23,586 nucleotides of DNA from a virus: positions 1 to 23,586 of the IMG/VR virus record IMGVR_UViG_3300024520_000503. One strand, 5' to 3'. Made by a program: the position numbers and the translations under genes. How positions within the stretch are numbered: the stretch's first letter is position 1; every line of letters starts with the position of its first letter. The notes beneath the pieces are model-generated. The model ran no database searches. It was given only the letters and a program-made list of their open reading frames with translations, and was not told the origin of the DNA. This document shows, piece by piece, positions 3,275-20,000 of this stretch.

Positions 3275-3289
3275 TGGTAAAATAAGTTT

Positions 3290-3945: not shown

Positions 3946-5501
3946 TGGATAGTAAGGAGTTAATAAAAGAAATCATACTAGATGGGACAAAAGAGGAAAA
4001 GAAGTTCCTGTTTGGTTTTGATGCTACTACTCCTAAGAAGACAGTACTAAATAAGTTCAAGGTATACGCTAGGGGAATGTACCCTCGTTACTTTAAAGGG
4101 GAATCAGCACCATTTCATGACGAGATGGTTTTAAACTATATAGACTCCTACTATGGAGAGAACTACTTGAATATCGCATTCAGAGGAAGCGCAAAGACTT
4201 CAATCATGAAGTTGTTTGTAACGTTTGTTCTTCTTAATGACGGCGATAAACACCGTAACTATATAAAGGTTCTAACTAAGGATGGAAAGAACTCTAAGCA
4301 GATTGTAACGGACATCTATAACTTGATGGTGGAGGTAAAGGACATTTATGGTGATGTCTTTGAAAGAGAAGGAGACACTAAGAGAGAAGAGACTATGGGT
4401 AGCTTTACTATGAAGAACGGTAGGAAACTATCATCAGGAACAGTGGGGCAAACACAGCGTGGACACGTCCAAGATGCTTATAGGCCAGACTGGATATGGT
4501 TTGATGATATTGAGGATAGAGATTCAGTGCGGTCACTTACTATTACTGATGGGATTATAGAGAAAACACAGGAGGCTATTGATGGTCTTGCTAAAGATGG
4601 TTCATATACTTGTACAGCTAACTACATCTCAGAGGAAGGAGTAGTAGAATGGATGAAGACAAAACCAAGTGTAAACACAATGATTACACCTATTCTTATT
4701 GATGGAATACCAACATGGGCTTACTACTCGACTGCAGACATAGCGAAGATTAAAGCTGATGCAGATGATTTCGCAGGGGAATACATGTGTGATCCTCAGA
4801 GTTCAGATAACAAGTTCTTCAGTGTAGAGCAGGTAAAGGCAGACCTAGAGTTATGCAGAGAGCCTTCAAAGGTCATTGTGGGGGCTAAATATTGGGGAAG
4901 CTACCTACCTCACCACAGGTATGGAATAGGAGCAGATACTTCAGCAGGAGTAGGTCTCGACAGTAATACTTATGTTCTATGGGACTTCAAGACAGGAGAA
5001 GCAATGGCTACTTATCACAACAACACTATTGCACCAGATATATTTGGTCATGAGTTAATGCGAATAGGTAGGGAGTTTGGAGAATGTATTATCGGCCCAG
5101 AAAGAAACAACACAGGATACGCCACACTTACAGCTATGGATGGATACCCAAACATCTATCAGGAAAGGACAATGGGTAAACAGGTGCAAGGAGTAACTAA
5201 TCAGCTAGGGTGGCACACAAACAGAAAGAGTAAGCCAACTATGTTCTTTGAGTTCAGAAAAGACTATACAGACGGTCTCATTAAGATATATGATTCAGAT
5301 CTGTTACAGGAAATGCTAAGATATACAGCATCAGATATGCAGAACGTAACCCAGTCATCAGTGACAAGGCACTTCGATCTTCTGACAGCAGCTGTTATAG
5401 GATGGCAGATGAAGAGTTATGCGGGTCAACCACAGAATATAAACAAGATCAGAGACCGACATATGATGAGGCAAAGGAATATGAAAAATCAAGCTAGGTA
5501 G
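3945..5501 (+). CDS. terL: Terminase large subunit
   Basis: This 518-aa protein has the two domains of the phage packaging motor. In the N-terminal ATPase, residues 77-87 (I-A-F-R-G-S-A-K-T-S) form the variant Walker A loop typical of terminases, and W-I-W-F-D-D-I-E (183-190) is Walker B with its catalytic acidic residue. In the C-terminal RNase H-like nuclease, metal ligands are expected at Asp331 (G-I-G-A-D-T-S-A-G), Glu386 (I-I-G-P-E-R-N) and Asp478 (R-H-F-D-L-L-T-A-A). Length is in the normal range. It starts in a TAATG overlap with the preceding gene and ends within the -35 region of the portal promoter. Confidence 0.95.
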   Translation: MDSKELIKEIILDGTKEEKKFLFGFDATTPKKTVLNKFKVYARGMYPRYFKGESAPFHDEMVLNYIDSYYGENYLNIAFRGSAKTSIMKLFVTFVLLNDGDKHRNYIKVLTKDGKNSKQIVTDIYNLMVEVKDIYGDVFEREGDTKREETMGSFTMKNGRKLSSGTVGQTQRGHVQDAYRPDWIWFDDIEDRDSVRSLTITDGIIEKTQEAIDGLAKDGSYTCTANYISEEGVVEWMKTKPSVNTMITPILIDGIPTWAYYSTADIAKIKADADDFAGEYMCDPQSSDNKFFSVEQVKADLELCREPSKVIVGAKYWGSYLPHHRYGIGADTSAGVGLDSNTYVLWDFKTGEAMATYHNNTIAPDIFGHELMRIGREFGECIIGPERNNTGYATLTAMDGYPNIYQERTMGKQVQGVTNQLGWHTNRKSKPTMFFEFRKDYTDGLIKIYDSDLLQEMLRYTASDMQNVTQSSVTRHFDLLTAAVIGWQMKSYAGQPQNINKIRDRHMMRQRNMKNQAR

Positions 5502-5536
5502 ATTATTAATCTTATTGTATAATTAAGGGGCGGTTC
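5493..5536 (+). promoter_or_regulatory. Late promoter and GCGG leader, head module
   Basis: The -10 TATAAT lies at 5518-5523 within the 9-mer GTATAATTA. Upstream, GCTAGGT at 5493-5499 is spaced exactly as in the promoter before 13599 (18 nt between this heptamer and the -10), so it probably carries the -35 function although it does not resemble TTGACA. A GCGG motif (5530-5533) lies 16 nt before the portal ATG. The spacer contains the small palindrome GATTATTAATC (5501-5511), a possible operator. This would drive portal, scaffold and capsid genes. Confidence 0.7.
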
Positions 5537-5545
5537 ATAAAGTAA

Positions 5546-7303
5546 ATGAATAAACAACTATTTGCATTTGTAGAAGAGACAATCGGTAATTACGAGTCAG
5601 GAAGTATCAGCTTAGTTGAAGGTCTTAACTTCAACATGTTTGACACACTGAAAACAATTGAGTTCTACTCAAACTCTAGGTATCGAGACGGTCAAAGAAA
5701 TGCACGAAACCAAGAGAAACCATTTTATAATATAGTTAATGCTAATGTAGACGTAGCCATCACAGCTACTGACATTGATACGAAAGATATTGTTATCGTT
5801 GGAGACAACGCTGATCAATATGTTAAGGCCATGATACTTACACGGTCTATTTATGAGTGGATGAAAGAAATAAACTATGCACAGTCACTTAACCGACAAG
5901 GAGAGATCCGAGCAAGATACGGAGGTATTCTAGTTAAGAAAGTAGAGCAGGAGAATGATCTGTTCATTGACGTTCCAGAATGGAAGAACCTTATTGTAGA
6001 TCCAGTTGATATTGAAGGAGGTGTTGTTATAGAACGACATTTCATGTCAGCAGCAGATCTCTCAAAGAAATCTGATTCATGGGACAACATCAACGAGGCA
6101 CTAAAGCTTGTAAACACAAGTTCATATAACAAAGGGGATATTCAATCAACACCAGTTGGATTCATCCAAGTACTTGAGGTATCAGGTGAATTACCAGAAA
6201 CAATAATAGATGAAGACGGAGACGAGTTTACATATGTACGACAACAACACTTCATTGCGACAGATGGTAAGAACATGGTTTCAATGTTTGGCGAATTACA
6301 GGACGAAAATCCTTACAAGTTCCTACCTTGGAAAGAAGTCTCAGGACGAGCTCTAGGACAAGGAATTGTAGAGGAGGGATTCCAGTCACAAATCTGGACT
6401 AACGACGCTGTGATAGCAGAACAGGAGGCAATGCAGCTATCTGGAAAGGTTATTCTAAAGACAGATGACGACGCACTGGCCAATAACATCTTTGAAGTTG
6501 ATAACGGACACGTGTTCACTCTTCAGAAAGGAAAAGACGTTTCATCAATGAATCTTCTTCCTTCAGCACTACCACAGTTCCAAAACCTAATAACAAAGTG
6601 GCAAACACAGTTCGATAGAACTACAGCAGTTACAGACTCACTACGAGGAGAAACTCCACCATCAGGACAAGCATTCCGATCTACAGCACTGGTTACACAG
6701 CAAGCATCTTCACAGTTTGATTACCGAAGAGAAGAGATGGGAATCCTACAGAAACAGATCTTCACTGACTGGGTTATACCTTTCTTGATAAGCAAGAGAC
6801 TAAGCAAGGCTTCAGTACTTACAGCACAGTTGTCTAGCAAGGAACTAGACCTAGTGGATGAATCAATACGAACAAGAGAAACAAACCAGATTCAGTTAGA
6901 AAGAGTCCTAGCAGGAGATTCACTGCTAGATGTAGAGGGAGTAGAGACATTAAACACAGAGATTGACCAGGAGTTGGCTAAACGAGACAGTGTCAGAACA
7001 GTGGGTATTCCAAAAGACTACTTTAAAGACTTTGAGTTCCAAGTAACCGTAAGGACAACAGGAGAGCAAGGAAACAAAGCAGCACGATTGGAGTCACTTT
7101 CAAACATACTACAGACAGCAGCAGCAAACCCAGCAGTACTACAAGACCCAGTATTATCAGAAGTATTCGGAGAGATACTAGAACTATCAGGACTCGGAGG
7201 GTTCAGAGCATCTCAAGGTTCATCAGCAGAAGGACAGTCAACACCAGCACCAGTTAAAGAAGAAACTAGCCTTAATCTTCCTCAACCAGAGGCACAAGCA
7301 TAA
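5546..7303 (+). CDS. Portal protein
   Basis: The 585-aa product directly follows the large terminase and precedes the scaffold and capsid genes, the standard portal position. Its length suits podovirus-like portals. The N-terminal part contains an F-Y-S-N-S-R-Y segment and a basic N-A-R-N-Q-E-K-P stretch followed by N-I-V-N-A-N-V-D-V-A, typical of portal proteins. The middle (about residues 350-440) has the long helical region with Thr/Ala/Gln-rich T-A-L-V-T-Q-Q-A-S-S-Q-F-D-Y-R-R, and the C-terminus is Pro/Gln-rich and disordered. As a dodecameric ring it would form the DNA channel and docking site for terminase and tail. It starts 23 nt after the promoter -10 and overlaps the next gene in TAATG. 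Confidence 0.88.
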   Translation: MNKQLFAFVEETIGNYESGSISLVEGLNFNMFDTLKTIEFYSNSRYRDGQRNARNQEKPFYNIVNANVDVAITATDIDTKDIVIVGDNADQYVKAMILTRSIYEWMKEINYAQSLNRQGEIRARYGGILVKKVEQENDLFIDVPEWKNLIVDPVDIEGGVVIERHFMSAADLSKKSDSWDNINEALKLVNTSSYNKGDIQSTPVGFIQVLEVSGELPETIIDEDGDEFTYVRQQHFIATDGKNMVSMFGELQDENPYKFLPWKEVSGRALGQGIVEEGFQSQIWTNDAVIAEQEAMQLSGKVILKTDDDALANNIFEVDNGHVFTLQKGKDVSSMNLLPSALPQFQNLITKWQTQFDRTTAVTDSLRGETPPSGQAFRSTALVTQQASSQFDYRREEMGILQKQIFTDWVIPFLISKRLSKASVLTAQLSSKELDLVDESIRTRETNQIQLERVLAGDSLLDVEGVETLNTEIDQELAKRDSVRTVGIPKDYFKDFEFQVTVRTTGEQGNKAARLESLSNILQTAAANPAVLQDPVLSEVFGEILELSGLGGFRASQGSSAEGQSTPAPVKEETSLNLPQPEAQA

Positions 7304-7527
7304 TGATAAAAGATAAACTAAAAGAGCTTTTTTTAGACAAAGCGATGCTCACCGAGGTAAAAGATGGTCTTATCGCACACTTGCAACGAGCAGCTCTAGA
7401 AGACGTCTTTGGAGGAACAGAGGTAGTAGGGTACAAACAAGCAGGAGAGGCCTTAGAAGACTTCTTTAAAGGACTAGAGAGCAAGTATTCAGAGAAGAGA
7501 GCGAGTTCAGGGAATAGTTCAGTATAA
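7303..7527 (+). CDS. Small hypothetical protein after portal (74 aa)
   Basis: A helical protein starting in a TAATG overlap with the portal stop, so probably co-translated. It contains alternating hydrophobic/charged residues (L-K-E-L-F-L-D-K-A-M-L-T-E-V-K-D-G-L) and a Gly-rich turn (F-G-G-T-E-V-V-G-Y-K-Q-A-G), with a disordered Ser/Asn-rich C-terminus. Placement between portal and scaffold suggests a head-assembly accessory, but I do not recognise the family. Confidence 0.65.
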   Translation: MIKDKLKELFLDKAMLTEVKDGLIAHLQRAALEDVFGGTEVVGYKQAGEALEDFFKGLESKYSEKRASSGNSSV

Positions 7528-7533
7528 AAACAG

Positions 7534-7593
7534 TGAGGGCATTAGGATATGGCCACCTCAATTAAAAAGCTAATCCACGGGAGATAACCCTCA
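7534..7593 (+). ncRNA. Predicted H-type pseudoknot with alternative fold, scaffold leader
   Basis: The 90-nt gap before the scaffold gene can fold as an H-type pseudoknot. Stem 1 is TGAGG (7534-7538) with CCTCA (7556-7560). Stem 2 is ATTAG (7541-7545) with CTAAT (7570-7574). An A-rich third loop (7561-7569) crosses stem 1. The same TGAGG(G) can instead pair with CCCTCA (7588-7593), producing a nested fold around the unchanged stem 2. The geometry (5-bp stems, 2-nt first loop, A-rich third loop) recalls the preQ1-I riboswitch, though its conserved GGUUC is absent. A TATAAA at 7523-7528 could start a transcript right at this element. Identified by eye, without energy calculation. Confidence 0.45.
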
Positions 7594-7617
7594 AAATCAA
7601 TTAACATACATAGTAAT

Positions 7618-8136
7618 ATGGATGAAAACATCGAGTTGCAGGACTCTCAAACACCTGTAGAGGTAGAGGAAGTTGTTGAAGCGGATGCATCTGCTGACAC
7701 AGAAGAATCTACACAGGAGGTAGACGTTGAAGGTCTACAAAAACAGAATGCTAAGCTTTATGCTCGCATGAAAAGAGCTGAGGAGGCTCTCAAAGCCACT
7801 CCTCAGGCCCCTCAGCCTCAAAAAGAGACAGTTATTAACAACACCCCAAATCAATCCGAAGACGCTGTTGACGCCAAAATTCTGGAGTCTCAAGGTTTCT
7901 CTGATGAGGAGATAGACAGGGCGAGGAAGGTTGCTAAGGTTGAAGACGTAAGTCTCATCAAAGCAACTAGAGACGAAATGTTCACTTCTTGGAAGGCATC
8001 CCAAGACGCAAAGAAGAAGGCTGAAAAGGCTCAGCTTAGGGGTTCAAAGGGTTCAGGCTTAAACAAGCCTCAGAAGACTACGAATCTTTCTAAAGAAGAG
8101 CACAAGGCTCTTTGGAACGAAAAGATGGGGAGATAG
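7618..8136 (+). CDS. Capsid scaffolding protein (probable)
   Basis: The 172-aa protein lies between portal and capsid genes. It has the composition of a scaffold: an acidic disordered N-terminus (E-V-E-E-V-V-E-A-D-A), a coiled-coil-prone middle (L-Q-K-Q-N-A-K-L-Y-A-R-M-K-R-A-E-E-A-L), a Pro/Gln linker, and a basic C-terminal helix (L-S-K-E-E-H-K-A-L-W-N-E-K) of the type that contacts the coat protein. Such proteins shape the procapsid and are expelled before DNA entry. The start is at a T-A-A-T-A-T-G context, 24 nt after the structured leader. Its stop lies within a hairpin that precedes the capsid gene. Sequence similarity among scaffolds is low, so the call rests on position and composition. 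Confidence 0.72.
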   Translation: MDENIELQDSQTPVEVEEVVEADASADTEESTQEVDVEGLQKQNAKLYARMKRAEEALKATPQAPQPQKETVINNTPNQSEDAVDAKILESQGFSDEEIDRARKVAKVEDVSLIKATRDEMFTSWKASQDAKKKAEKAQLRGSKGSGLNKPQKTTNLSKEEHKALWNEKMGR

Positions 8137-8170
8137 TCTCACACTATTTATTAGTAGTTAAAGTGGGACT
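8135..8170 (+). promoter_or_regulatory. Hairpin in the capsid-gene leader
   Basis: AGTCTCAC (8135-8142) can pair with GTGGGACT (8163-8170), an 8-bp stem with one G-U pair and a 20-nt AT-rich loop. It begins within the scaffold stop codon and ends 19 nt before the capsid ATG. No T-run follows, so it is less likely a terminator than an mRNA processing, stability or translation element that could let the capsid be made in excess of the scaffold. Predicted by eye only. Confidence 0.4.
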
Positions 8171-8189
8171 GTCATAAACATTCATAATC

Positions 8190-9095
8190 ATGGCATATCC
8201 AACAGATACGTTCACAGCTGCTGACTTAGCAGTGCTTATCCCAGAAGTATGGGGAGAAAAGATTAATGACTTCTACAAAGATGCAGGAGTTATCGCACCT
8301 TTCTTCACAGACCGAAGTGATGAAGTAGTTATGGGAGGTGATGTTCTACACACACCAAACCTAACAGAGATGAGTGCAAACGCTAAAGCTAACGCAACAG
8401 CAGTTACACTTAACTCACCAACAGAGACAAAAGTTGATCTAACAATCGACCAGTGGTACGAAGTTTCATTTGCAATCGAAGATAAAGAGGCAGCTCAGGT
8501 AAAACGAAGCTACTCTCTACAAGAGCGATACGCAAAGAACGCAGGTTACACAATCGCACAGCAACTAGAAACAGCTATCGCAGCACTATTCACAGGATTC
8601 TCAGCATCAGCTGGAACTACTGCAACAGACGTTGACGATGACGAAATTCGAGAAGCTATTGCAACACTTGCAGCAGCAGATATTCCAGGACTTAATGCTG
8701 GAACAAACGAAGTAGCATTCATCATGCACCCAAACACTATCTGGAACCAGGTACAGGGAATTGATAAATTCGCTCTTCTACAGAACACTAATGGTTCAGA
8801 TCCAGTATTGAAAGGACACGTAGGATCACTTTACGGAATTCCCGTATTGTCATCTACAAACGTTCCTATTTCTACAGACCGAATCAACGTTCTAGCTCAC
8901 ACTGACGCAATTCACTGGGCAACATCACCCCTTGGAGCAGGAGGTTCAAAGGGAGCAATGGTTGGATCAGGAGGAGTCCGAGTTCAGTCAAACTACATTC
9001 CAGAGCAACTCGCAACACTTACAACTGCAGACATTCTGTACGGAGTAATTGAAAACCGAGACGCAGCTGGAGTTCAATTGATCGGAAACGTTTAA
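8190..9095 (+). CDS. Major capsid protein
   Basis: The 301-aa product follows the scaffold and has features of HK97-fold coat proteins of podovirus-like phages. The N-terminus has the P-E-V-W-G-E-K-I-N-D-F-Y segment seen in many such proteins, followed by the G-G-D-V-L-H-T-P beta element, a long helix (S-L-Q-E-R-Y-A-K-N-A-G-Y-T-I-A-Q-Q-L-E-T), and a domain with W-N-Q-V-Q-G-I-D-K-F and the G-S-L-Y-G-I-P-V-L-S-S turn typical of the A-domain. No N-terminal delta-domain extension is evident, in agreement with a separate scaffold. Codon choice is uniform and Ala/Thr rich, as in a highly expressed late gene. It is flanked on both sides by predicted RNA hairpins. Confidence 0.9.
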   Translation: MAYPTDTFTAADLAVLIPEVWGEKINDFYKDAGVIAPFFTDRSDEVVMGGDVLHTPNLTEMSANAKANATAVTLNSPTETKVDLTIDQWYEVSFAIEDKEAAQVKRSYSLQERYAKNAGYTIAQQLETAIAALFTGFSASAGTTATDVDDDEIREAIATLAAADIPGLNAGTNEVAFIMHPNTIWNQVQGIDKFALLQNTNGSDPVLKGHVGSLYGIPVLSSTNVPISTDRINVLAHTDAIHWATSPLGAGGSKGAMVGSGGVRVQSNYIPEQLATLTTADILYGVIENRDAAGVQLIGNV

Positions 9096-9146
9096 TCGTT
9101 ACTCTTGGGGCTTTACGCCAAAACGATAGCCCCAAGATGTTTTGGC
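9095..9146 (+). promoter_or_regulatory. Two mutually exclusive hairpins after the capsid gene
   Basis: Right after the capsid stop, TCTTGGGGCT (9103-9112) pairs perfectly with AGCCCCAAGA (9128-9137), a 10-bp stem followed by GTTTT, like a weak intrinsic terminator. Its loop contains GCCAAAAC (9117-9124), which is perfectly complementary to GTTTTGGC (9139-9146), and AACGAT (9122-9127), which is complementary to ATCGTT (9095-9100). A one-nucleotide linker cannot span the 10-bp stem, so the alternatives exclude each other, as in terminator/antiterminator pairs. It could trim capsid-to-downstream expression. Confidence 0.5.
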
Positions 9147-9175
9147 AGCGATGACTACTAATAAATAAAACTATT

Positions 9176-9328
9176 ATGGGTAAAGTAACAGTAAGTGCAG
9201 GGTTACAGAGGCATAGAGTGAGGATGGATAAAAATGGAGTTACAAAGGAAGTGCCAACACTGGCAAATAAACTAAAGGACAGCGATAAGCTTCCTAAATT
9301 TGCAGCTAAATTAAGAACACTAAAATAA
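9176..9328 (+). CDS. Small basic hypothetical protein after capsid (50 aa)
   Basis: A short Lys/Arg-rich protein starting 30 nt after the hairpin element and ending in the TAATATG junction with the next gene. The sequence (G-K-V-T-V-S-A-G-L-Q-R-H-R-V-R-M-D-K-N-G-V) looks like a beta hairpin followed by a basic helix. No family is recognised. Its position suggests a head-completion or capsid-associated role, which remains inference. Confidence 0.55.
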   Translation: MGKVTVSAGLQRHRVRMDKNGVTKEVPTLANKLKDSDKLPKFAAKLRTLK

Positions 9329-9329
9329 T

Positions 9330-9692
9330 ATGACAAGAACTTACACATTCAAAAATGACGAGATCGTTTCCCTTATGGGAGAAAAAGACACTCTTATGGA
9401 GTATTTCAAGAAGCAGACAGCAAAGATAGAGAAGCTTCAGAAGGAACTTGGAGACAAGTCACAAGAGCTCCAAGTTCTAAAGGACAAAATGCGGCCGATA
9501 GTAGATGAATATGTCCTAGACCAACTTGATGAGTTTGAGCTAGTAACAAAGCTTGATGTAAAGGACGGAGAGATCGTGGTGGAAATTGTAGACGAGATTG
9601 AAAGCTTTAAAGAGGCTGTACAGAAAAGGAAACTAAAGGAGATTGAAGATAAAGAGAATGAAGGAAAAGAAGTTGAGGAAGAGGAAGAATAA
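9330..9692 (+). CDS. Coiled-coil hypothetical protein with acidic tail (120 aa)
   Basis: The product is helical, with heptad-like hydrophobic spacing from about residue 15 to 55 (L-M-E-Y-F-K-K-Q-T-A-K-I-E-K-L-Q-K-E-L). A predicted beta/alpha segment follows (D-E-F-E-L-V-T-K-L-D-V-K-D-G-E-I-V-V-E-I-V), and the C-terminus is a Glu/Lys-rich tail. It is the last gene of the head module and is followed by a strongly structured intergenic region. The last 35 nt overlap a second small open frame (9658-9783). No function is assigned; a head-assembly accessory is plausible. Confidence 0.65.
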   Translation: MTRTYTFKNDEIVSLMGEKDTLMEYFKKQTAKIEKLQKELGDKSQELQVLKDKMRPIVDEYVLDQLDEFELVTKLDVKDGEIVVEIVDEIESFKEAVQKRKLKEIEDKENEGKEVEEEEE

Positions 9693-9698
9693 AATACT

Positions 9699-9767
9699 CC
9701 CTGTCCTTGGCAGGGTATATGGGGGATTCAAATTAAATAATGCCGCACCCTTTGAACCCCTCATATA
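9699..9767 (+). terminator. Tandem hairpins at the end of the head module
   Basis: The first hairpin pairs CCCTGTC (9699-9705) with GGCAGGG (9709-9715), 7 bp with one G-U and a triloop. It abuts a second, larger one: 9716-9732 against 9751-9767, 17 positions with a single mismatch and one G-U pair and an 18-nt loop. Only a short CTTT follows, so it is not a textbook intrinsic terminator, but place and stability fit transcription termination or mRNA 3'-end protection before the next promoter. The loop of the second hairpin is complementary to the following leader (see findings). Confidence 0.5.
9726..9744 (+). repeat. 19-nt exact repeat, copy 1 (intergenic hairpin)
   Basis: ATTCAAATTAAATAATGCC occurs here and again at 23516-23534 within the peptidase gene. 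Here it forms the 5' arm and loop of the large hairpin. Confidence 0.85.
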
Positions 9768-9786
9768 CTTTGCTCGGGAATAGTAG

Positions 9787-9810
9787 TATAATTATAAGAA
9801 AGGTGCGGCC
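9787..9810 (+). promoter_or_regulatory. Late promoter and GCGG leader, connector module
   Basis: TATAAT (9787-9792) in the shared GTATAATTA 9-mer, then GGTGCGGC (9802-9809) with GCGG starting 16 nt before the ATG at 9821. No good -35 is visible at normal spacing (a TTTGCT at 9769 is too close). The start of transcription is expected around 9799, so the leader would begin just ahead of the GCGG motif. It follows directly on the hairpins that end the previous unit. Confidence 0.65.
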
Positions 9811-9820
9811 ATAAGAACAC

Positions 9821-10519
9821 ATGGTATTTAGCGATTCAACTGACAAACAAGGTATTGTAGAAGAAGTAAGGTTCCTAACAGGGACTAATTCTAGTACTTA
9901 CCCTATTGCACAACTAACTAGGAACGTAAACAGAGCTCTCGATAAAGTAACATCCACTATAATAAGTGCTGATGGACGATGGCAGTGGGATGATAGCAAC
10001 GAAACAGATTACCCTATTGCGACATCTGACTTGGTTTCAGGTCAAAAGGAGTATGTTCTATCCAACAACTTCCTTACTATTTATAGGGTGGAGTGGAAAG
10101 ACAGTAATGGAAACTGGGTTTTAGGCGTGCCTATAGACCAAAGAGATATTAAAGAAGCCATTGATGAGTTCCAGAAGACAGACTCAACACCGCTGTATTA
10201 CGACAAGATTAACGACTCATTGTTCTTATTCCCTAAACCAAACTACAACTCAACAGACGGGCTGAAAGTGTACTACCAGAGAAACACAACCTACTTCACA
10301 GCCTCAGATACAGTAAAAGAGCCTGGATTCGGTAGGCAGTTCCACAGACTGCTATCACTTTACGCAGCTAAGGATTACGCAGTTGCACGGAAGCAAGAGA
10401 TGGTTACACCCTTTACTAATGAGATCCAGAAACTGGAGGATGAGTTAGAAAGGTTCTACGGAGCACGGTCAGAAGACGAGCCAAGAGTTATTAAAAGCGT
10501 TTATAAAACATCAAGATAA
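9821..10519 (+). CDS. Head-tail connector / adaptor protein (probable)
   Basis: A 232-aa protein in the position of the ring that joins the portal to the short tail (P22 gp4-like or tail-tubular-A-like adaptors). The layout fits: an N-terminal helical part with V-N-R-A-L-D-K-V (about residues 33-42), a W-Q-W-D-D-S-N-E-T-D-Y-P-I-A motif (53-66), G-Q-K-E-Y-V-L beta strands, a second beta-rich segment ending in L-F-L-F-P-K-P, and a long C-terminal helix containing a predicted coiled coil (residues 180-220). The W-D-x-x-N-x-T-D-x-P motif is common in such podovirus connector proteins. It heads its own transcription unit. The call is by position and pattern; no alignment was run. Confidence 0.65.
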   Translation: MVFSDSTDKQGIVEEVRFLTGTNSSTYPIAQLTRNVNRALDKVTSTIISADGRWQWDDSNETDYPIATSDLVSGQKEYVLSNNFLTIYRVEWKDSNGNWVLGVPIDQRDIKEAIDEFQKTDSTPLYYDKINDSLFLFPKPNYNSTDGLKVYYQRNTTYFTASDTVKEPGFGRQFHRLLSLYAAKDYAVARKQEMVTPFTNEIQKLEDELERFYGARSEDEPRVIKSVYKTSR

Positions 10520-10983
10520 TGAAAAATAATTTAAGCATAAAAGGTAGAATCAAGTTGGTTCACCGAGACAACGAGGGTAACATTAAGTCAGTTACGGAGA
10601 AGAGTAACATAATTACAAATGCAGGAATTGCAGAGGTTGCTGGGCTTATGGGGAATACGGGTTCTCCAACAGCATTTACATATCTAGCAGTTGGAACATC
10701 AGCAACAGCGGTGGCAGCAACAGACACTACTCTGGGGGCTGAAATAACATCAGGAGGACTAGAAAGGGCCTCAGCTACAGTATCTAGGGTTACCACAACA
10801 GTAACAAACGACACACTACAGTTCGAAAAAACATGGACAGCAACAGCAACTCTAGCAGTGGAAGAATGTGGAGTGTTCAATGATGCTTCAACAGGGGACA
10901 TGTTGGGTCACGCATTAACAACAACAAAGTCGCTAGTATCAGGAGATACGTTAGCGCTAACTTATAAGGTTCAAGTATCATAA
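10519..10983 (+). CDS. Beta-rich minor structural protein (154 aa)
   Basis: Begins in a TAATG overlap with the connector gene. After a short basic start, the protein is Thr/Ala/Ser rich with repeated beta-strand patterns. The segment Y-L-A-V-G-T-S-A-T-A-V-A-A-T-D-T-T-L-G (around residues 54-73) is a widely seen phage pattern in virion decoration and fibre-base proteins. The C-terminal half continues as a beta sandwich ending in L-T-Y-K-V-Q-V. It probably sits on the neck or tail, or forms part of the fibre base. No catalytic motif is seen. Confidence 0.6.
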   Translation: MKNNLSIKGRIKLVHRDNEGNIKSVTEKSNIITNAGIAEVAGLMGNTGSPTAFTYLAVGTSATAVAATDTTLGAEITSGGLERASATVSRVTTTVTNDTLQFEKTWTATATLAVEECGVFNDASTGDMLGHALTTTKSLVSGDTLALTYKVQVS

Positions 10984-10986
10984 TCT

Positions 10987-11802: not shown

Positions 11803-11803
11803 T

Positions 11804-13243
11804 ATGGCTAATAAAAAACTAAACAACTTCTATTCAGGGCAACAGTTTGACGACAGACTGCCAACTTCATCAGGGTATTCATATTCAGAAAACTTTAAAC
11901 TTGACGACCTTACAAAGCTGAGAGCTACATACGGTAAAGACCCAGAAACTCTTGACTCAGAGGGGACTTTTAATCTTATGGCTGATGACAATGGTGTCGT
12001 TTGGAGGTTAGGTATCGATGATGGTGGGGCAAGTAGACCAAACAACGCCTCTATAGATAACTACACAACAGGGTGGGAAAATGCCAACACAGCAACGTCA
12101 GGTGCAATAACAAGTCAGACTAAGACTATGACCTTTTATAAAGGGGGTATGTATTTTCAAGGTCTTAACTACTTAATGAAGTTCTCACCTCCAGCTAACA
12201 CTATAGATACAACATTCCAAGCCACTACCAACGTAATTACAGGACGAGGTGTCGTGGGTAAAGATGACGTATTGTATTTTCCAACAGATACTACTTTAAA
12301 TTCCTATGATCCAAATGTTGTACCAGCTTGGGTTGAAGATGTTATCTCAGTACCAGATGACTATACTATTAAACAAATAGACGTATTCCAAAACCTCCTT
12401 GCGATAGGGGTAGATTCCAACGACTCAAGGGAGTCAGGTATTTTCTTATGGGATTACATAAACGCCGACATTACAGACTTCATACCAGTAGGGGTGGGGG
12501 ACTTGTTTGGACTTACTAACTTAAACGGTATTCTTATAGCTGGATTAAGTTATGAAGATAAATCAGGGCAAATAATAGAGATGAAGGGATATTCAGGGGG
12601 GAGTCCTGTCTCATTGGGTAAGATTAAGATGAACTTCCTAGACAACCCAGAGCCTTTTAAAGAATTTCAAGGGAAAATCATGTTTTCTGCAAGATCAAGT
12701 AATACAGACTCTCTTTCTGATGCTAGATATAGTGTTTGGGAATTTGGTCAAGTTACGACACAAACACCATTTGGCTTCAATCTATTTATGACAGATGATG
12801 ACTGGGCGCAAGACTTATACGACTTCCACCAGCTTGATGATGGTTTCTTAGTCGCTTACAGGGGGGCTTCACCAGGAACGGAATATAAGATAGATAAGGT
12901 ATACAGATTAGGCTCTAGTGCTGTCATTGAAACACAATGGTTCACAGGGAATGATCCAACTATTACACAGCAACTTATTTCAGCTACTGTTCTACATAAC
13001 CCAATCCCAAGCGGAGGTTCTGTAACGGTTAGTGTTAAGTCAGATGCGGACACAAGCTACACAACACTGCTCGTGTCAACAACAGAGGACTCAATGAGGA
13101 CTACAGCTACTTTCGAGTCAGATGGAGGAGAGCTGGATCAATTCCTACGTCTGAAGGTTAAGGTTGATACAACAGGAGGGGTTGATGTCTACGGTATTAA
13201 GCCAGAATTTGATGCGATAACAGACGACGCTTATGGACGATAA
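11804..13243 (+). CDS. Structural tail protein, possible tail hub/nozzle (479 aa)
   Basis: The start at 11804 is chosen because it forms the TAATATG junction with the previous stop; an in-frame ATG at 11735 would force a 68-nt overlap. The protein is beta-rich with many short repeated strand-turn units (V-W-R-L-G-I-D-D-G-G, M-Y-F-Q-G-L-N-Y-L-M-K-F, V-L-Y-F-P-T-D-T-T-L-N-S-Y-D, G-I-F-L-W-D-Y-I) reminiscent of beta-propeller blades. The C-terminal 110 residues form a separate beta domain. Propeller-like nozzle proteins (for example P22 gp10 or T7 gp12) occupy the same gene position after the adaptor, so a tail-nozzle role is plausible but unproven. Confidence 0.6.
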   Translation: MANKKLNNFYSGQQFDDRLPTSSGYSYSENFKLDDLTKLRATYGKDPETLDSEGTFNLMADDNGVVWRLGIDDGGASRPNNASIDNYTTGWENANTATSGAITSQTKTMTFYKGGMYFQGLNYLMKFSPPANTIDTTFQATTNVITGRGVVGKDDVLYFPTDTTLNSYDPNVVPAWVEDVISVPDDYTIKQIDVFQNLLAIGVDSNDSRESGIFLWDYINADITDFIPVGVGDLFGLTNLNGILIAGLSYEDKSGQIIEMKGYSGGSPVSLGKIKMNFLDNPEPFKEFQGKIMFSARSSNTDSLSDARYSVWEFGQVTTQTPFGFNLFMTDDDWAQDLYDFHQLDDGFLVAYRGASPGTEYKIDKVYRLGSSAVIETQWFTGNDPTITQQLISATVLHNPIPSGGSVTVSVKSDADTSYTTLLVSTTEDSMRTTATFESDGGELDQFLRLKVKVDTTGGVDVYGIKPEFDAITDDAYGR

Positions 13244-13562
13244 CTTACAAGAACAAATAGATGCTCTAAAGCTTCAACTCCAGCAATTCAACTATGCTTA
13301 TGACCGAATGGTTCGCAGTGACAGGATTGTCCCTAATAAGAACATATTCTTATTAGACGGTGGTGTTGTTTCAGCTGGTTCTAATTTAGGAACTAAGGTG
13401 GGCGAAGGCACTACAGATAAGCTAGGGTTTTACGGAGTAACTCCAGTGGATCAACCAGCAACAGTGAGTGACCCATCAGGAGGTGCAACAATAGACAGTG
13501 AATCACGGACAGCTGTGATAGCATTGATAGATAGGTTGCAGGAGCTAGGTTTAATAGCGTAG
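13233..13562 (+). CDS. Coiled-coil fibre-associated protein (109 aa)
   Basis: Starts 11 nt inside the end of the preceding gene. The N-terminus (L-Q-E-Q-I-D-A-L-K-L-Q-L-Q-Q-F) is a coiled coil. The segment T-D-K-L-G-F-Y-G-V-T-P-V-D-Q-P-A (about residues 62-77) is a frequent phage fibre/appendage motif, normally followed, as here, by a segment ending in a short helix (T-A-V-I-A-L-I-D-R-L-Q-E-L-G-L-I). In many phages this module ends a fibre subunit or adaptor. The gene contains a 10-bp perfect hairpin in its coding sequence and its last codons overlap the GCTAGGT element of the next promoter. Confidence 0.6.
   Translation: MDDNLQEQIDALKLQLQQFNYAYDRMVRSDRIVPNKNIFLLDGGVVSAGSNLGTKVGEGTTDKLGFYGVTPVDQPATVSDPSGGATIDSESRTAVIALIDRLQELGLIA
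13333..13356 (+). repeat. 10-bp perfect inverted repeat with tetraloop inside a CDS
   Basis: CTAATAAGAA (13333-13342) and TTCTTATTAG (13347-13356) are perfect reverse complements separated by CATA. It lies about 100 nt into the 109-aa gene. It could be an mRNA structure or an operator-like DNA site; coding constraint does not explain a perfect 24-nt hairpin. Confidence 0.6.
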
Positions 13563-13588
13563 TTATTGTATAATTAATAGAAAGCGGC
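13544..13588 (+). promoter_or_regulatory. Late promoter and GCGG leader, ejection module
   Basis: TATAAT (13569-13574) in GTATAATTA, preceded by TTATTG-TATAAT and, 18 nt upstream of the -10, by GCTAGGT (13544-13550), identical in sequence and spacing to the portal promoter. GCGGC at 13584-13588 lies 15 nt before the ATG at 13599. The shared heptamer suggests a -35-like contact for a non-canonical sigma factor or an activator. Confidence 0.7.
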
Positions 13589-13598
13589 TCAAAAAAAC

Positions 13599-15266
13599 AT
13601 GGAAGAAGATTTACTTAAAAAAGCAAAAAACTTAAAAGGTGATTTAGATAAAGGATTCCAAAGTTTCTCTGAGAGGAATGATAAGAATGACTTCTCACAA
13701 TTCGCTGGTACTGATATAGGATTCTCTAGAGACCCATCACAGACTGGAGTTCCAGCCATACCTACACCACTTATTTCAAATACTCAAGTAGAAGCACCAG
13801 AGCTCGAAATACCAACTCGGGCTGTTGTTGCACCTGCACCTCAAATTCAAGCAGATCCAGCACAAGCTATAGTTTCAGGAGCACAAAAGATAGCAACAAG
13901 ACCTATTGCTAAAACTCCAGAACAACTAAGAGCAGAAGGAGCTCCGACAGACAGAACAACTAGAACAGCAACAGGAGAAGAACAAGTCCTTCAAGGTAGA
14001 ATAGAAAAAGCAATGGGACTATCCGAAGGAACCCTCGGGAGAGAACAAGCTCAACTAGAAGAAGAACGACTTAGAGGAGTTGAAGAACAAAATCAAAGGG
14101 TTGCACAGAAGCAAGGAGAGATCCAAACACTTGCAGCTGAATTTGACTCTGCAATCGTCGGATTAGAGGGACAAGGTAGAGGTATACCACTTTCGCTTAT
14201 TACAGGCCAGCAGGGGCTTCTCAGGCGCCAGAAAGCAGCAGAAATAGGTATCAAGCAAGCAGAACTACTCGCTATTACAGGACAAAGAGATGCAGCACAG
14301 AAAGCAGCCGACCGAGCTGTTGATTTAGAGTTTGATGCTAGAGACCAAGAACTACAAAATGCACTACTTGAAATTGAACTAGTTAAACCACTCGCAGACG
14401 CAGCAGAGCGAAAACGACTAGAGGCACGAGAAGATGAAATCAACGGACAGTCCTCAGTAGCCAAAGATCTTAAAGATAATAAGAAGTTCTTCATAGAACA
14501 AGCAATCGATAACCAGCAGTTTGATGTTGTGAGTGCGCTTATGACAGCAGGATCTGTAGAAGAGTTGGCACAAGCCGCTTCAGGAATACAGTTCGGTAAC
14601 TCAATAGATGATATATACAAAAGATTACAGATAAGTAAATTACAGTCCTCAGTATCAGGAGGAGGGGGTGTCTCAGCCGAAACAGATGAATTTGGACGTG
14701 TCCTAGTTAATTCAAAGGATGCCTCTAAGTTGAATAAGGAGATTAGAACATCAGACGCATTCCAAGCTATCCAGAAAGGTACAACCTCACTAGCAGGACT
14801 CAATAGATTTGAGGAACTTTTCAATAAGGTTGGAACAACATCAGGAGTTACTAGTCCTTTTGATGAGTCTAGACTTGCTCCACTCTATAACGCAGCAGTA
14901 TTGGATCTTAAAGAGTTCTTCAACCTTGGAGTTCTTAATGGCCCAGACCTCGAAGTTATTCAGTCAGTCCTTCCAAAACCAACAGGACAAGGATTTGTTA
15001 CAAACATTGCCGCTAAAGGATCTACAAAGGCAGGTTTGGCAAACATTAAGTCTATGATCAACGATACACTAGATGATCGGTATCGAAGTATTGTTCTTCA
15101 GTTTGAGCAGTCTCCAGAATCAGTAGGTGCTCTTAGAGATCTACAAATCACATACATTGATAACAAATCAAAACTGGATTCTAATATAAAAACAGCTGTT
15201 GATTCAGCCAGGAAAGAATTCCCAGGAATTTCAGATGATGAAATTATTCAAATAATATCAAACTAA
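13599..15266 (+). CDS. Large coiled-coil virion protein, candidate ejection protein (555 aa)
   Basis: The N-terminal ~100 residues are Pro/Ala-rich and probably disordered. Residues ~140-290 form long charged helices (E-E-E-R-L-R-G-V-E-E-Q-N-Q-R-V-A-Q-K-Q-G) interrupted by a G-R-G-I-P-L-S-L-I-T-G-Q-Q-G motif, a pattern I have seen in phage tail/ejection-type proteins. A Gly-rich hinge (S-G-G-G-G-V-S near residue 350) leads to a compact C-terminal helical domain. It starts its own transcription unit with the 483-aa membrane-active protein, a pairing like the internal virion proteins that form a DNA conduit in podoviruses. No catalytic motif such as a lytic transglycosylase signature is seen. 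Alternative: a fibre-base or tail-spike anchor. Confidence 0.5.
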   Translation: MEEDLLKKAKNLKGDLDKGFQSFSERNDKNDFSQFAGTDIGFSRDPSQTGVPAIPTPLISNTQVEAPELEIPTRAVVAPAPQIQADPAQAIVSGAQKIATRPIAKTPEQLRAEGAPTDRTTRTATGEEQVLQGRIEKAMGLSEGTLGREQAQLEEERLRGVEEQNQRVAQKQGEIQTLAAEFDSAIVGLEGQGRGIPLSLITGQQGLLRRQKAAEIGIKQAELLAITGQRDAAQKAADRAVDLEFDARDQELQNALLEIELVKPLADAAERKRLEAREDEINGQSSVAKDLKDNKKFFIEQAIDNQQFDVVSALMTAGSVEELAQAASGIQFGNSIDDIYKRLQISKLQSSVSGGGGVSAETDEFGRVLVNSKDASKLNKEIRTSDAFQAIQKGTTSLAGLNRFEELFNKVGTTSGVTSPFDESRLAPLYNAAVLDLKEFFNLGVLNGPDLEVIQSVLPKPTGQGFVTNIAAKGSTKAGLANIKSMINDTLDDRYRSIVLQFEQSPESVGALRDLQITYIDNKSKLDSNIKTAVDSARKEFPGISDDEIIQIISN

Positions 15267-15268
15267 TC

Positions 15269-16720
15269 ATGGCCTTAACTCAAGAACAAATAAACAGACT
15301 AAGAGGGAATTTACATTCAAAACAACAACAAGCACCTAGTTCTCAAGGAGGTCTAAGGAACTTTTTTGCAGACGCAGTGCAAGATGTTAAAGAAATAGGT
15401 TCTGGCGTTAAAGAGAGAGCTTTTGAGAGAGCAGACCAGTTTGGAGAACAACAGACACTTGTAGGTAAATTTGGACAAGGTGTGGGTTTCGCAGGTGATA
15501 TTATTGGAGAAACAGTGCTTGGGGCAGCAAAAGCGGCAGTACCGCAATCAACAGAAGAAGCGGTTTCGAGCGGTTTCGAGTCAACAGCAGCTAAAGTGTT
15601 ACAAAACGAGAAGGTTCAGGAGGGACTAGCAGCAATTGAAAGGTTCAAAAAAGAAAACCCAACTCTTTCCGAGGCGCTAACAGCTGTTGGTAATACAGCG
15701 ATACTAGGATTAGACATTGTCGGAATTGGAGGAGGAGCTCAAGTAGCAAAGACAGTTGGTAAAAAGGGGTTGAGGACAACAAAAGACACTATTTCTAAGG
15801 GAGTGGACACTGTGGGATCTAAGACACGAGATGTAGGGTCTGCTGTTACAGGTGCTCTGAAGGATATAAAACCTACTAGGCAAGCAATTATAAATGAGCA
15901 GGTTACTAAGGCCCTCGACTTTGCACCAGGGGATTTAAATAAAATAGCCAGGGCCACTGATAACGAAGCGGGTATTTTCTTAGCAGATCAAAACTTAATA
16001 GGAACAAACAAGGCTAATACTGTCAGGAACCTAGAGGAGTTTGCAGACGATGCGTTCAATCAAGTACGTGAAGAAATTGGACTAGTAGGCGATAAATTCA
16101 CACATTCAGACATCCCTCAGTACAAAGAAGCTTTGAATGCAATAAAAGATAAAACAAAAGGGAAAGCTGGGCTACAAGAGGTGAATAAGGAGCTCGGCAA
16201 GCTAATCAGGAAAAAGAATATAAAACTTACAGACGTGCAAAGAACAAAAGAGCTTCTAGACGAACACTTCAGTCTATTCAGCGTTACTGGAGATATTAAA
16301 GAAAGTGTAGAGAAACAAGGGCTTGCTAATGTTAGACAGAGTCTCAGGGGCTTTATAGAAGATAAGGTTGAGATAGCTGGGGGAGGTGACATTAAGTTAC
16401 TGAACAATAACGTTGCAACATCAAAAACTATACTAGAGACAATTAAGACTCGTTCTCCTAAAGGTCTAACTAAATCAAATATAAAGCTAGGAGATCTAGG
16501 AATCTTCGGGGTAGCTTCTACCTTCGGAGGGCCAGCAACAGGACTAGCTGCACTTCTCTTAAAGAAGATAATAGAGTCACCATCAGTAAGGCTTAGGTTT
16601 GCGAAGTGGTTAGATAAGATAGATGACGCAAAAAGAGCTGAGGCCTTAGAGGAACTCAGAAAAGGTACTGTGTCTGATGAACTACAGAAAGCTGTAGGTA
16701 TTACTGATGCGACCGAATAA
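15269..16720 (+). CDS. Membrane-interacting virion protein, candidate ejection protein (483 aa)
   Basis: Starts at TAATCATG, two bases after the previous stop. The N-terminal third is amphipathic and Gly/Ala-rich (G-V-G-F-A-G-D-I-I-G-E-T-V-L-G-A-A-K-A-A near residues 71-90; a second hydrophobic Gly-rich stretch around 137-162). A further hydrophobic region near residues 410-435 (G-I-F-G-V-A-S-T-F-G-G-P-A-T-G-L-A-A-L-L-L) precedes a basic helix. Such a layout is expected of proteins that leave the capsid and insert into the host envelope as a DNA-ejection channel. The middle (~200-390) is helical and charged. A 10-bp tandem duplication lies in codons 98-104. No family is recognised with certainty. 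Confidence 0.5.
   Translation: MALTQEQINRLRGNLHSKQQQAPSSQGGLRNFFADAVQDVKEIGSGVKERAFERADQFGEQQTLVGKFGQGVGFAGDIIGETVLGAAKAAVPQSTEEAVSSGFESTAAKVLQNEKVQEGLAAIERFKKENPTLSEALTAVGNTAILGLDIVGIGGGAQVAKTVGKKGLRTTKDTISKGVDTVGSKTRDVGSAVTGALKDIKPTRQAIINEQVTKALDFAPGDLNKIARATDNEAGIFLADQNLIGTNKANTVRNLEEFADDAFNQVREEIGLVGDKFTHSDIPQYKEALNAIKDKTKGKAGLQEVNKELGKLIRKKNIKLTDVQRTKELLDEHFSLFSVTGDIKESVEKQGLANVRQSLRGFIEDKVEIAGGGDIKLLNNNVATSKTILETIKTRSPKGLTKSNIKLGDLGIFGVASTFGGPATGLAALLLKKIIESPSVRLRFAKWLDKIDDAKRAEALEELRKGTVSDELQKAVGITDATE
15561..15580 (+). repeat. Tandem 10-bp duplication in a coding region
   Basis: The decamer CGGTTTCGAG occurs twice head to tail, encoding V-S-S-G-F-E across two frames of the same unit. 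Loss or gain of one copy would shift the frame. Confidence 0.8.
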
Positions 16721-16727
16721 TTATTCG
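16714..16727 (+). repeat. 14-nt perfect palindrome at a stop codon
   Basis: CGAATAATTATTCG overlaps the TAA of the 483-aa gene. It has no T-run and a stem too short for an intrinsic terminator, so it could be an operator or fortuitous. The 85 nt from here to the next ATG (16806) contain no other gene or clear promoter that I can see. Confidence 0.4.
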
Positions 16728-16805
16728 ATACCACCCATAATTAGTAGGAATATGATAAGAAAGAATATTTCCATATATCTACATAATAAACACAAACAAA
16801 CAACC

Positions 16806-16973
16806 ATGTCAACAAAAACTGTTAATAACCAAGATATAGCCGATCTGGCAAAATTCCAGAGATTGCTACGAAATATTGAGGACATGAGACGAGGAGCAGC
16901 CCAAACTCTTGTTAAAAGAGAGAATGAAGGTATGTTCAAACGCATTTCTGAAAGGAGACGAAATGCTGTATAA
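16806..16973 (+). CDS. Small basic protein before the fibre gene (55 aa)
   Basis: The frame extends further upstream to an ATG at 16707, but that part overlaps the previous gene's end and reads as non-protein-like AT-rich sequence, so the ATG at 16806 (AAACAACC-ATG) is preferred. The product is Arg/Lys-rich and helical (F-Q-R-L-L-R-N-I-E-D-M-R-R-G-A-A-Q-T-L). Its last codons overlap the -10 of the fibre promoter. No function is recognised; a small virion-assembly or regulatory peptide is possible. Confidence 0.5.
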   Translation: MSTKTVNNQDIADLAKFQRLLRNIEDMRRGAAQTLVKRENEGMFKRISERRRNAV

Positions 16974-16992
16974 TTAGTATAACGTGTGCGGC
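16969..16992 (+). promoter_or_regulatory. Late promoter and GCGG leader, fibre/lysis module
   Basis: TATAAT (16969-16974) in GTATAATTA, then GCGGC (16988-16992). The motif is 13 nt before the ATG at 17001 and 16 nt before the one at 17004; the other three leaders have 15-16 nt, which favours the second ATG. A GTG at 16986 lies within the motif itself and is unlikely as a start. Confidence 0.65.
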
Positions 16993-17000
16993 TAACACAT

Positions 17001-20000
17001 ATGATGCCATCCAATCAAAACGAACTTAAAAAACTATTAAACTTTGCAGAAGATAAGGATCTAGCACTGTTCGATGAACTTTCTGGTCTTAATGAATCTC
17101 TGAATGATTTCAGGGGTATTTTCGATAATACAAACTTCCAGAATGTAGAGATCCTAAAAGGAGAGGATGGGTACACACCAATACTAGGTGTAGATTTTCT
17201 TACAGACGTAGATATAGCAGAATTGCTGGCCAAGACAGAGAAGCTACTGGTTCATGGAGTTGACGGAAAGGATGGTAAAGATGGAGTAGGGGTTAATGGT
17301 AAAGATGGAACAGATGGCGCCACACCAGTTAAAGGTGTTGATTTCCTTACAGAGACAGACATTCAAGAAATGGCAGAGGCTACAGCAAAACAAATTACTC
17401 AGTTTGAACTGTTAGGAGAAGGTGTAAGGGATGTTCTTATGGAAATGGAAGGGGACGATAGACTACCCATCATAGCCATTGCTTCTCTTAGGGAAGAGTT
17501 GGACAGGCTACATTTTGCAATACAAAACCCAATCAACGGTAAAAGGACAACAGGTGGAGGTAATCTTTCTACATTCAAGAACGGAACTAAAGTAGGGTCA
17601 GGAACTAAGCTAGACCTTATAGAAGGTACTAACGTAACGATTACGTCAGCATTTGATGGCTCAAAGACAAGTTATACAATTGCTGCAGCAGGAGGAGGTG
17701 GTGGTGGATCAGGAACAATGACAACTGTAAAAGAAGACGGGGTTCAGGTAGGAGGTGCTGATATTGAAGTACTTGATTTTGGAACAGGGTTTGATCTTAC
17801 AGAATCACCTGATAAGGAGATAAATATATCACTTGATTTAGACGAACTTGTTGATAGTTATACTGAAAGTAACACACCCCAATCTGGAGACATGATTCTT
17901 TGGCAGGACGTAACAGCCAATGTTATTAAGAAGTTTGATGTTGCAGATGCTCACACAGCTCTTGGTTTTACTTTATCTAACCAATACGACATTGCATATG
18001 GGGCGTCAGACCTTTCATTAGCATCAGATGGATCATTCCAATATTTAAATACAACAAAACAACTCATCAGCGACTCATCAGTTGTGGGTATAGGAGGTTC
18101 TATTAACTGGACTATCAGCAACTTGGCACATGACGGACTTGTGTTGAAGCCAGTATCAGGAACATATGCAGGTAACTACATTGACCTACTAAACAACGCA
18201 GGTGCTACCCTCTTCCAAGTAGACACCACAGGACAGCTACTAATCCCTGGAACAGTCGAGGCTTCACCTATCGACATTGCAGACTACATTCCTTTCATTG
18301 ATAACTCAGCAGGAAGTACAGTCAAGAAAGTATTACGAGACAACTTCCTTTCAGAGATTGGAGGAGGTGGACGTTCAGCAGGAGATGCTGGAGAGGTTAT
18401 ATACGCAGATGGTACAGGTCTTACAAGCTCAGAGGCAGAGTTCTTGTACCAATCTACTATCAATAAGCTAAACGTAGGAGAGGTATCAGGTTCAGCTAAC
18501 TTCCACATGGAGGTGATGACAGGAGCTGTTCAGCAAGCGTGGCCAGCAATCAACATACTAGAAAGTACACATGCCTCATCAGGACGTGCCACTATCGGAT
18601 ATGGACTAGATAATGCAGCAACACCAACATCAGGATTTCTACAGGGACGAGACTGGGCAGGAACAGATACAGAGACTTTCTACCTATACTCACTCTCAGG
18701 AGCTAAAACAGCCATGTACGTTGACGGTGCAACTGGATATGTACAGATCGGAGGTGGTGGAGGTAATGCTTCAAACCCACTCTCAGCACACCTATCACTT
18801 TCAGGAGACTTCGTTGCTCGTGTAGAAAACACTCACGCGAGTGGTGACGGACTTCTTATAAATACAGCAGGAACAGGAGGTACTGAGAGTTCATTTAGAG
18901 TTTCAAACAATTCAAATATTAACTTTGATATTCATAACGATGGGGATGTTAGTATCGGACAGACAGCCAACACTCATTCTATTGTAGAAATTACAGCAGA
19001 CGCAGATACGATTGATGCAGCAGGGCATGATTGGGCAATTCCTTTGTCATTGAACGTTGACTACGGTCAAGGAGGAATGGACATCTCAGGACAGTCAGGA
19101 GGGGGGACAGATCTTTACTACAGCCTACGAGACAGTGACGATATTGATAATGCCAACTACTTCTGGATGGGTCTTGATACAAACGGAGCTGTAGCACCAA
19201 CTGGAACTAATGCTCTGGTATCTTCAAAGAATGGAACGGGAACAACTAATAATTTGGTTCTTACAGCTACAGACAACTCTACTAGCGCCACTCCTCAAAT
19301 AACTATTAAAGCAAACACCGCCTTTGTAGGAATAAACAAACTTGTGCCTACGGTAGCCCTTGATGTGGTTGGAGCAGGAGCGTTCACTTTAGACGTAACA
19401 GTACCAGACGAAGTGTATGGAGCAGGGTGGAATGGTTCACTCGAAGTACCAACAAAGAACGCTGTATACGATAAGATCGAAACACTTGGAGGAGGTGGTG
19501 ACGTTACAGCAGCAGCAAACATAACAGATCACGCTCTCGTTAGAGGTGATGGTGGAGCTAAAGGTATACAAGATAGCGGAATATTCATTGATGACACTGA
19601 CAATATGTCTGGTGTTACGCTAGATGATTTCGATAATACTATCAATGCAGATGGAATCCATACAAGAGTAATCAACAACTCTGGAGTAACAATCAATAAA
19701 GGAGAGCCTGTGTATATTAGTGGATATAATGCAGGATCAGGACTCTCAGAGGTAGCCAAAGCAGACGCAGATGACGCAAGTAAAATGCCTTGTGTTGGTC
19801 TTATGGCTTCTAATACAACAAACACTTCAACAGGTGGTGTGATTTCATTTGGAAATATAAACTCACTAAACACCTCAAGCTGGGCTGTGGGAGATTCTGT
19901 GTATGTAGACACAACAGCAGGAGCATTAACAAACACTCGTCCAACAGGTGCGACTACAAATGTTCAGAAGATTGCAGAAGTTAAGAAATCAGATGCTTCA

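Follow-up and report, generated by a model that had tools for sequence, protein, structure and literature searches.

The viral record IMGVR_UViG_3300024520_000503 of IMG/VR (23,586 nucleotides, analysed over its whole length and referred to below as the window) carries its virion genes in four units, each preceded by a predicted late promoter, and a putative stem-loop RNA encoded directly downstream of the head genes, whose apical loop is complementary to the leaders of all four units (Table 1). The first unit was taken to extend from the portal to the capsid gene, because the terminase gene lies upstream of the first promoter. An earlier note on this DNA had described the 9-mer GTATAATTA at four sites, each 23-32 nt upstream of a gene. 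The copies were found at 5517, 9786, 13568 and 16968; all four are on the + strand, and the window has no others (0.37 expected; none of 100 shuffles reached four). They mark promoters of virion genes only; the spacing, counted from the end of TATAAT to the ATG, had to be corrected to 22-28 nt. In a post hoc test, any 9-mer common to four of 30 gene-upstream regions was obtained in one of 1000 shuffled sets. Plain TATAAT is not enriched in the AT-rich window (17 occurrences, 17.4 expected), and the promoter calls therefore rest on position and conservation: the hexamers stand, as -10 elements of the sigma-70 type, at a fixed place before transcription units, and this position is conserved at the portal and connector starts. 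No -35 match is listed at the four sites.

Conservation was assessed in a non-redundant set of about 100 viral contigs that carry related capsid and portal genes. A -10-like site is present in the 75 nt before the portal start in 55 of 98 cases and before the connector start in 27 of 70, versus 5 of 91 cases for the capsid gene and 7 of 95 for the scaffold gene, in agreement with the proposal that promoters are located at module boundaries. The 9-mer itself did not prove to be widely conserved: its only other copy precedes the portal gene of the relative L052, and the -10 of other relatives has the form TGnTATAAT or TATACT.

Each copy in the window is followed, at the distances previously reported, by GCGG (5530, 9805, 13584 and 16988), which is the only 4-mer common to all four late leaders. 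It lies 16, 16, 15 and 13 nt before the start codon (in the fourth leader, 16 nt before a second ATG) and 6, 12, 9 and 13 nt after TATAAT; a common 4-mer at such constant spacing to the start was seen in 0.3% of shuffles. Over 21 leaders carrying a tag of this kind, the spacing to the start has a standard deviation of 3.1 nt and that to the -10 one of 6.7 nt (p 0.0002), and the distance from the -10 to the tag ranges from 3 to 26 nt. This placement relative to the start codon upholds the view that GCGG is a signal at the RNA level and not a promoter discriminator. It is also, as had been stated, not a Shine-Dalgarno sequence, and GGAGG-like motifs 4-17 nt before starts did not exceed background either in the relatives (6 of 227 starts versus 16 of 227 control stretches) or in the window (3 of 30 versus 8 of 30). 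The further suggestion that GCGG is an initiation signal read by the ribosome fared less well; a site of intermolecular or long-range RNA pairing fits better, given the covarying complementary loops described below.

The predicted partner of these leaders is an inverted repeat in the 128-nt gap that separates the connector gene from the last gene of the head unit. The segment 9694-9789 folds at about -40 kcal/mol (z -5.8), with a minimum free energy of -39.1 on the + strand versus -32.2 on the - strand. GCCGCAC occurs only once on the + strand of the window. The loop was scored for pairing with the 30-nt stretches that precede the 31 gene starts, and the late leaders took the first four places, with duplex energies from -17.8 to -11.1 kcal/mol (Table 1), the next gene start reaching -8.5 kcal/mol. 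The stem-loop is followed by AATTATAAGAAAGG and does not have the GC stem with a U-run of an intrinsic terminator or attenuator, a combination that relatives with class C leaders (see below) do possess. Searches of the window and of L002, L006, L046, L053 and L163 against Rfam gave no match with E up to 1. Frameshifting or readthrough at the stop codon before the stem-loop was considered and rejected: readthrough would reach a new stop after 15 codons and, by inspection, the relatives have no common extension.

Table 1. Coordinates of the predicted promoters, leader motifs, stem-loop and genes in the window
Feature	Position	Strand	Remarks
Stem-loop RNA (predicted)	9694..9789	+	96 nt, 35 bp; 18-nt apical loop 9733-9750
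Anti-motif GCCGCACCC	9742..9750	+	Unpaired loop, complementary to the late leaders
-10 TATAAT, late promoter 1 (portal unit)	5518..5523	+	Inside GTATAATTA, 5517-5525; -10 at the portal gene in relatives also
-10 TATAAT, late promoter 2 (connector unit)	9787..9792	+	
-10 TATAAT, late promoter 3	13569..13574	+	
-10 TATAAT, late promoter 4 (fibre unit)	16969..16974	+	
Leader motif 1 AAGGGGCGGT	5525..5534 (GCGG 5530-5533)	+	-13.8 kcal/mol with the loop; one-base bulge
Leader motif 2 AAAGGTGCGGC	9799..9809	+	91% complementary to 9742-9752; -17.8 kcal/mol with the loop
Leader motif 3 GCGGC	13584..13588	+	Weakest loop partner, -11.1 kcal/mol
Leader motif 4 GTGCGGC	16986..16992	+	-14.7 kcal/mol with the loop
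Terminase gene	3945-5501		Upstream of late promoter 1
Portal gene	5546..7303	+	585 aa; first of the head unit; phrog_332 head-tail adaptor, E 5e-5
Major capsid protein gene	8190..9095	+	phrog_267, E 8e-26
Last head-unit gene	9330..9692	+	Stop codon 1 nt before the stem-loop; homologues in 10 loci
Connector (head-tail adaptor) gene	9821..10519	+	Pfam SU10_adaptor, E 3e-9, above cut-off

The same arrangement recurs in relatives whose leaders carry a tag (class B), which has the form GTTGYRS, is ATTGCGG in L002 and is centred on GCGG in the window. GTTGYRS is present at 23 of 168 portal and connector starts versus none of 204 internal-gene starts (p 5e-9); RNAalifold found no common fold in the tag leaders. 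The connector upstream region was readable in 11 class B genomes (the window, L002, L006, L046, L052, L053, L062, L064, L065, L070 and L100), and a twelfth, L163/L164 (contigs of L056/L058), was fetched after the idea had been formed. L052 was assigned to class B at both portal and connector because its portal gene is preceded by GTATAATTA and GTTGCGG, with a probable GTG start 9 nt after the tag. In all 12 tagged genomes, the window included, the corresponding position holds a stem-loop that presents the reverse complement of the genome's own tag; those of the 11 genomes were found by unconstrained folding, and their anti-tag stretch adjoins the 3' arm and is wholly or almost wholly unpaired. 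The outer stem frequently includes the stop codon of the preceding gene. The loop/tag pairs are CCACAAC/GTTGTGG, CCGCAAC/GTTGCGG, ACCGCAAT/ATTGCGGT, TCACAAC/GTTGTGA, TGCAACTA/TAGTTGCA, CTGCAAC/GTTGCAG, GTGCAAC/GTTGCAC and GCCGCACC/GGTGCGGC. The stem-loop of L163/L164 carries GCCGCAACT, of which 9 nt are complementary to the portal leader AGTTGCGGC, kilobases away.

Own loops paired better than foreign ones (duplex sum -113.9 versus -79.2, standard deviation 7.5; p < 5e-5). Shuffling of the loops gave p values of 0.0005-0.11 per genome and about 4e-16 when combined by Fisher's method, the segments having been picked from the folds by eye and the related genomes being only partly independent. 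In 12 of 12 cases, folding is more favourable on the + strand than on the - strand (p 0.0005), as would be expected if selection sees + strand RNA, and about 18 connector regions of untagged relatives (class A, class C and others) are without such a stem-loop. Pairing between tag and loop is well supported by these comparisons: as in trans-acting small RNAs (sRNAs), an unpaired seed is complementary to several leaders and covaries across species, here in 12 genomes. In L046, a third GTTGTGG tag follows TATAAT at 7043-7065, near the end of the scaffold region and before the capsid gene.

The other leaders of the relatives differ in kind. The distance from the -10 to the ATG is bimodal, being either 6-12 nt or mostly at least 22 nt. 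The short form (class A) would give leaderless mRNAs; a TA-like signal about 10 nt before the start is known to mark leaderless genes (Zheng et al. 2011; PMC3160421), and some portal and connector -10 elements of the relatives likewise lie only 6-10 nt before the ATG, whereas the four late mRNAs of the window would have leaders of about 16-22 nt. Most long leaders carry one of a few elements, namely (i) the class B tag, (ii) a small hairpin with an AAGNA loop, whose stem covaries, and after it a terminator-like hairpin that immediately precedes the ATG (class C), or (iii) CAG-GAAAA-CTG or a variant of it (class D). Portal and connector leaders of one genome belong to the same class in 18 of 19 cases versus 6.8 expected, a figure from which relatedness has not been removed, and the classes switch repeatedly along the portal tree.

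Attenuator-like leaders lie 5' of the portal gene, the connector gene or both in L007, L026, L039, L048, L079, L104, L108, L112, L153, L162 and L168, L048 and L079 fitting loosely. Their order is promoter, small hairpin with an AAGNA or AGAGA loop, and terminator-like hairpin with a U-run ending near the ATG; the small hairpins have covarying 3-bp stems (CCG/CGG, TCG/CGA, CGG/CCG, CAG/CTG, GAG/CTC and CTG/CAG), and the two hairpins often overlap in bases. Hairpins of the form [CT]AG-GAAAA-CT[AG], some of them inside GTCT..AGAC, precede the portal gene in L066, L084, L086, L094, L144 and L145; their loop is GNRNA-like, as in lambda boxB, which is a resemblance only. Upstream of the scaffold gene of L014, L015, L018, L008 and L022 there are repeated, conserved small hairpins with GTAAGCATAATC-like loops, sometimes in tandem.

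Taken together, the results make it probable that the 3' untranslated region (UTR) of the head operon encodes a regulatory RNA of the phage, which base-pairs with late mRNAs next to their start codons, and they point to a control of phage late genes by RNA that has not been described before. Each of the four late promoters would give an mRNA with a very short 5' leader to the first gene of its module, carrying 9-12 nt upstream of the AUG a genome-specific tag (N-GCGG-Y in the window). Transcription running to the end of the head operon would produce the stem-loop RNA, as the 3' end of the operon's mRNA, a view based on the lack of a visible promoter of its own and on the frequent overlap of the outer stem with the preceding stop codon. 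Presumably released by processing and acting in trans, the RNA would target the tag through its exposed anti-tag and form a duplex with the leaders of all late mRNAs, those of the portal, connector, third and fibre units; action in trans is suggested because several loops fit the distant portal leader best. Pairing would change the access of ribosomes to the start codon, and we slightly prefer repression, because the initiation footprint would include the duplex. In L060, L121, L114, L052 and the connector leader of L058, the tag is folded into a hairpin touching the AUG, and in relatives with such folding, pairing could instead open the start site. It may be, although we put this forward tentatively, that one stem-loop RNA serves as a global translation switch for all late genes in phages without Shine-Dalgarno signals; the loop would then be a master key to the tag on each late mRNA, tag and key would evolve as a matched pair, and related phages would have swapped the whole module for leaderless mRNAs or attenuator-like leaders.

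Several observations weigh against a regulatory RNA of this kind. The tag-loop duplexes are short (5-9 bp), the third leader pairing with the loop by 5 bp only; no promoter of the stem-loop's own was found; and L065 taken singly was not significant in the loop shuffle (p 0.11). Furthermore, a sequence model of the relatives' GTTGYRS leaders did not recover those of the window, and the GCGG tag is therefore linked to GTTGYRS by its position and its own anti-tag, not by sequence homology. In the portal tree, the window groups apart from the other clades that carry tags.

The stem-loop could also act only in cis. The loop and the connector leader, 50 nt downstream, adjoin, so that an H-type pseudoknot could form in RNA reading through from the head operon and either hide the connector start or shape the end of the head mRNA; the tags of the other leaders would then require another explanation. 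The frequent inclusion of the preceding stop codon in the outer stem also speaks for this reading. Action in cis only is nevertheless rather unlikely, since a promoter sits between loop and leader and RNA starting there cannot pair in cis, the loops of L163 and L002 match the connector leader less well than the distant portal leader, and all four late leaders of the window outscore the other 27 starts. A tag read by the ribosome, through 16S rRNA or a ribosomal protein, as an initiation signal of another type would agree with the lack of Shine-Dalgarno signals in the family and with the fixed distance between tag and AUG, and pairing of mRNA with rRNA outside the anti-Shine-Dalgarno region has been reported at selected sites (PMC3310771). 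We nevertheless regard it as unlikely: internal genes of the same operons have no tag, relatives dispense with it at the same genes by means of leaderless mRNAs, and the matching loops are left unexplained. Complementarity of GUUGYGG to 16S rRNA or initiator tRNA was considered and does not account for the loops either.

The conserved-loop hairpins (AAGNA, GAAAA) and terminator-like hairpins before the ATG that relatives carry at the same promoters recall attenuation, and in this light the tag might be bound by an RNA-binding protein of the phage or of its host, or serve in antitermination, with the anti-tag loop as a decoy or autoregulatory mimic. The loop holds the complement of the tag and not a copy, however, which is not expected of a protein mimic, and the tag-class leaders have no U-run terminator, so that this explanation is very unlikely; antitermination of the boxB or put type was rejected for the tag class because there is no terminator beside the tag. 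Every single duplex is short, as chance similarity or a DNA-level promoter element would allow, but this last, disfavoured explanation is scarcely credible beside the variable distance from -10 to tag and the match in 12 of 12 genomes with its combined Fisher p value.

The regulatory RNA proposed here has partial counterparts. In the C4 antisense RNA of phages P1 and P7, loops a' and b' pair with phage mRNA near the ribosome binding site (PMC5320573). P22 sar and lambda OOP and aQ are likewise phage RNAs that base-pair with phage genes, aQ lowering Q and hence the late genes (PMC12197685). Like C4, which is cut from a longer phage transcript, the window's element would be a structured RNA encoded by the phage, whose unpaired loop is the complement of a leader sequence close to the start codon; C4, however, consists of three stem-loops and acts in immunity via the ant/icd mRNA, in contrast to one stem-loop after the head operon with four late leaders as candidate targets, in a phage without Shine-Dalgarno signals. 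The C4 covariance model of Rfam gave no match (E up to 1) in the window or in the five relatives searched. The likeness to sar and OOP/aQ lies in a phage RNA acting on phage genes through base pairing, but those RNAs are transcribed opposite their target with long complementarity, whereas the predicted pairing in the window involves a short tag repeated at several mRNAs and an RNA from the same strand. In bacterial sRNAs derived from 3' UTRs, a stem-loop RNA from an operon end pairs with 5' leaders via a short seed. The window's element would resemble them in both respects and differs in having no visible U-run tail, in its candidate targets, which are late mRNAs of a virus, and in the covariation of seed and sites between phages.

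Coordinated control of phage late genes is usually credited to sigma factors, antiterminators or phage RNA polymerases. The sequence evidence suggests a base-pairing RNA whose candidate targets lie at all virion operons, in phages that show no Shine-Dalgarno signal. The covarying tag/anti-tag pairs make this claim directly testable with simple reporters, and the matching of leaders to loops offers a route to such systems in uncultured phages.

As regards the gene content, the portal, capsid and terminase fit known phage families, some of them weakly; the portal gene is co-located with the capsid gene in about 100 viral contigs, and in fold comparisons the connector product matched portal-tail chains of VP1, GP4, SU10 and N4. 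Profile searches revealed no recognisable function for the third unit, and searches with its protein and with the 11735 protein found no relatives. Of the division into head, connector/tail, ejection and fibre/lysis units that had been put forward, the promoters at module boundaries stand and "ejection" stays a guess. A proposed upstream promoter element, GCTAGGT, could not be maintained: the pair of sequences is real, but the first copy codes for the last residues of the terminase (NQAR*) and the second for ELGLIA*, and a similar peptide is kept in relatives with other codons. The pair is a coding coincidence.

Matches to named phages were confined to distant cyanophage capsids and an unhosted spring phage. 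L038 (JAAZCL010000379.1), the sole match in the genome collection, is a 9.6-kb contig of the family filed in a Bacteroidales metagenome-assembled genome; one such contig in one assembly is too weak a basis for naming a host.

A stable stem (GATAGTCTCAC..GTGGGACTGTC) is present at 8131-8172 of the window, just 5' of the capsid gene, within a 130-nt region with z -3.2. Probable leaderless promoters were noted at 1525-1542 (TGCTATAAT), before the ATG at 1540 of a gene for an HNH-like endonuclease (this start lies downstream of the GTG at 1447), and at 3275-3292 (TGGTAAAAT), before the ATG at 3290. The early-side genes of the window thus look leaderless, and the four late ones leadered.

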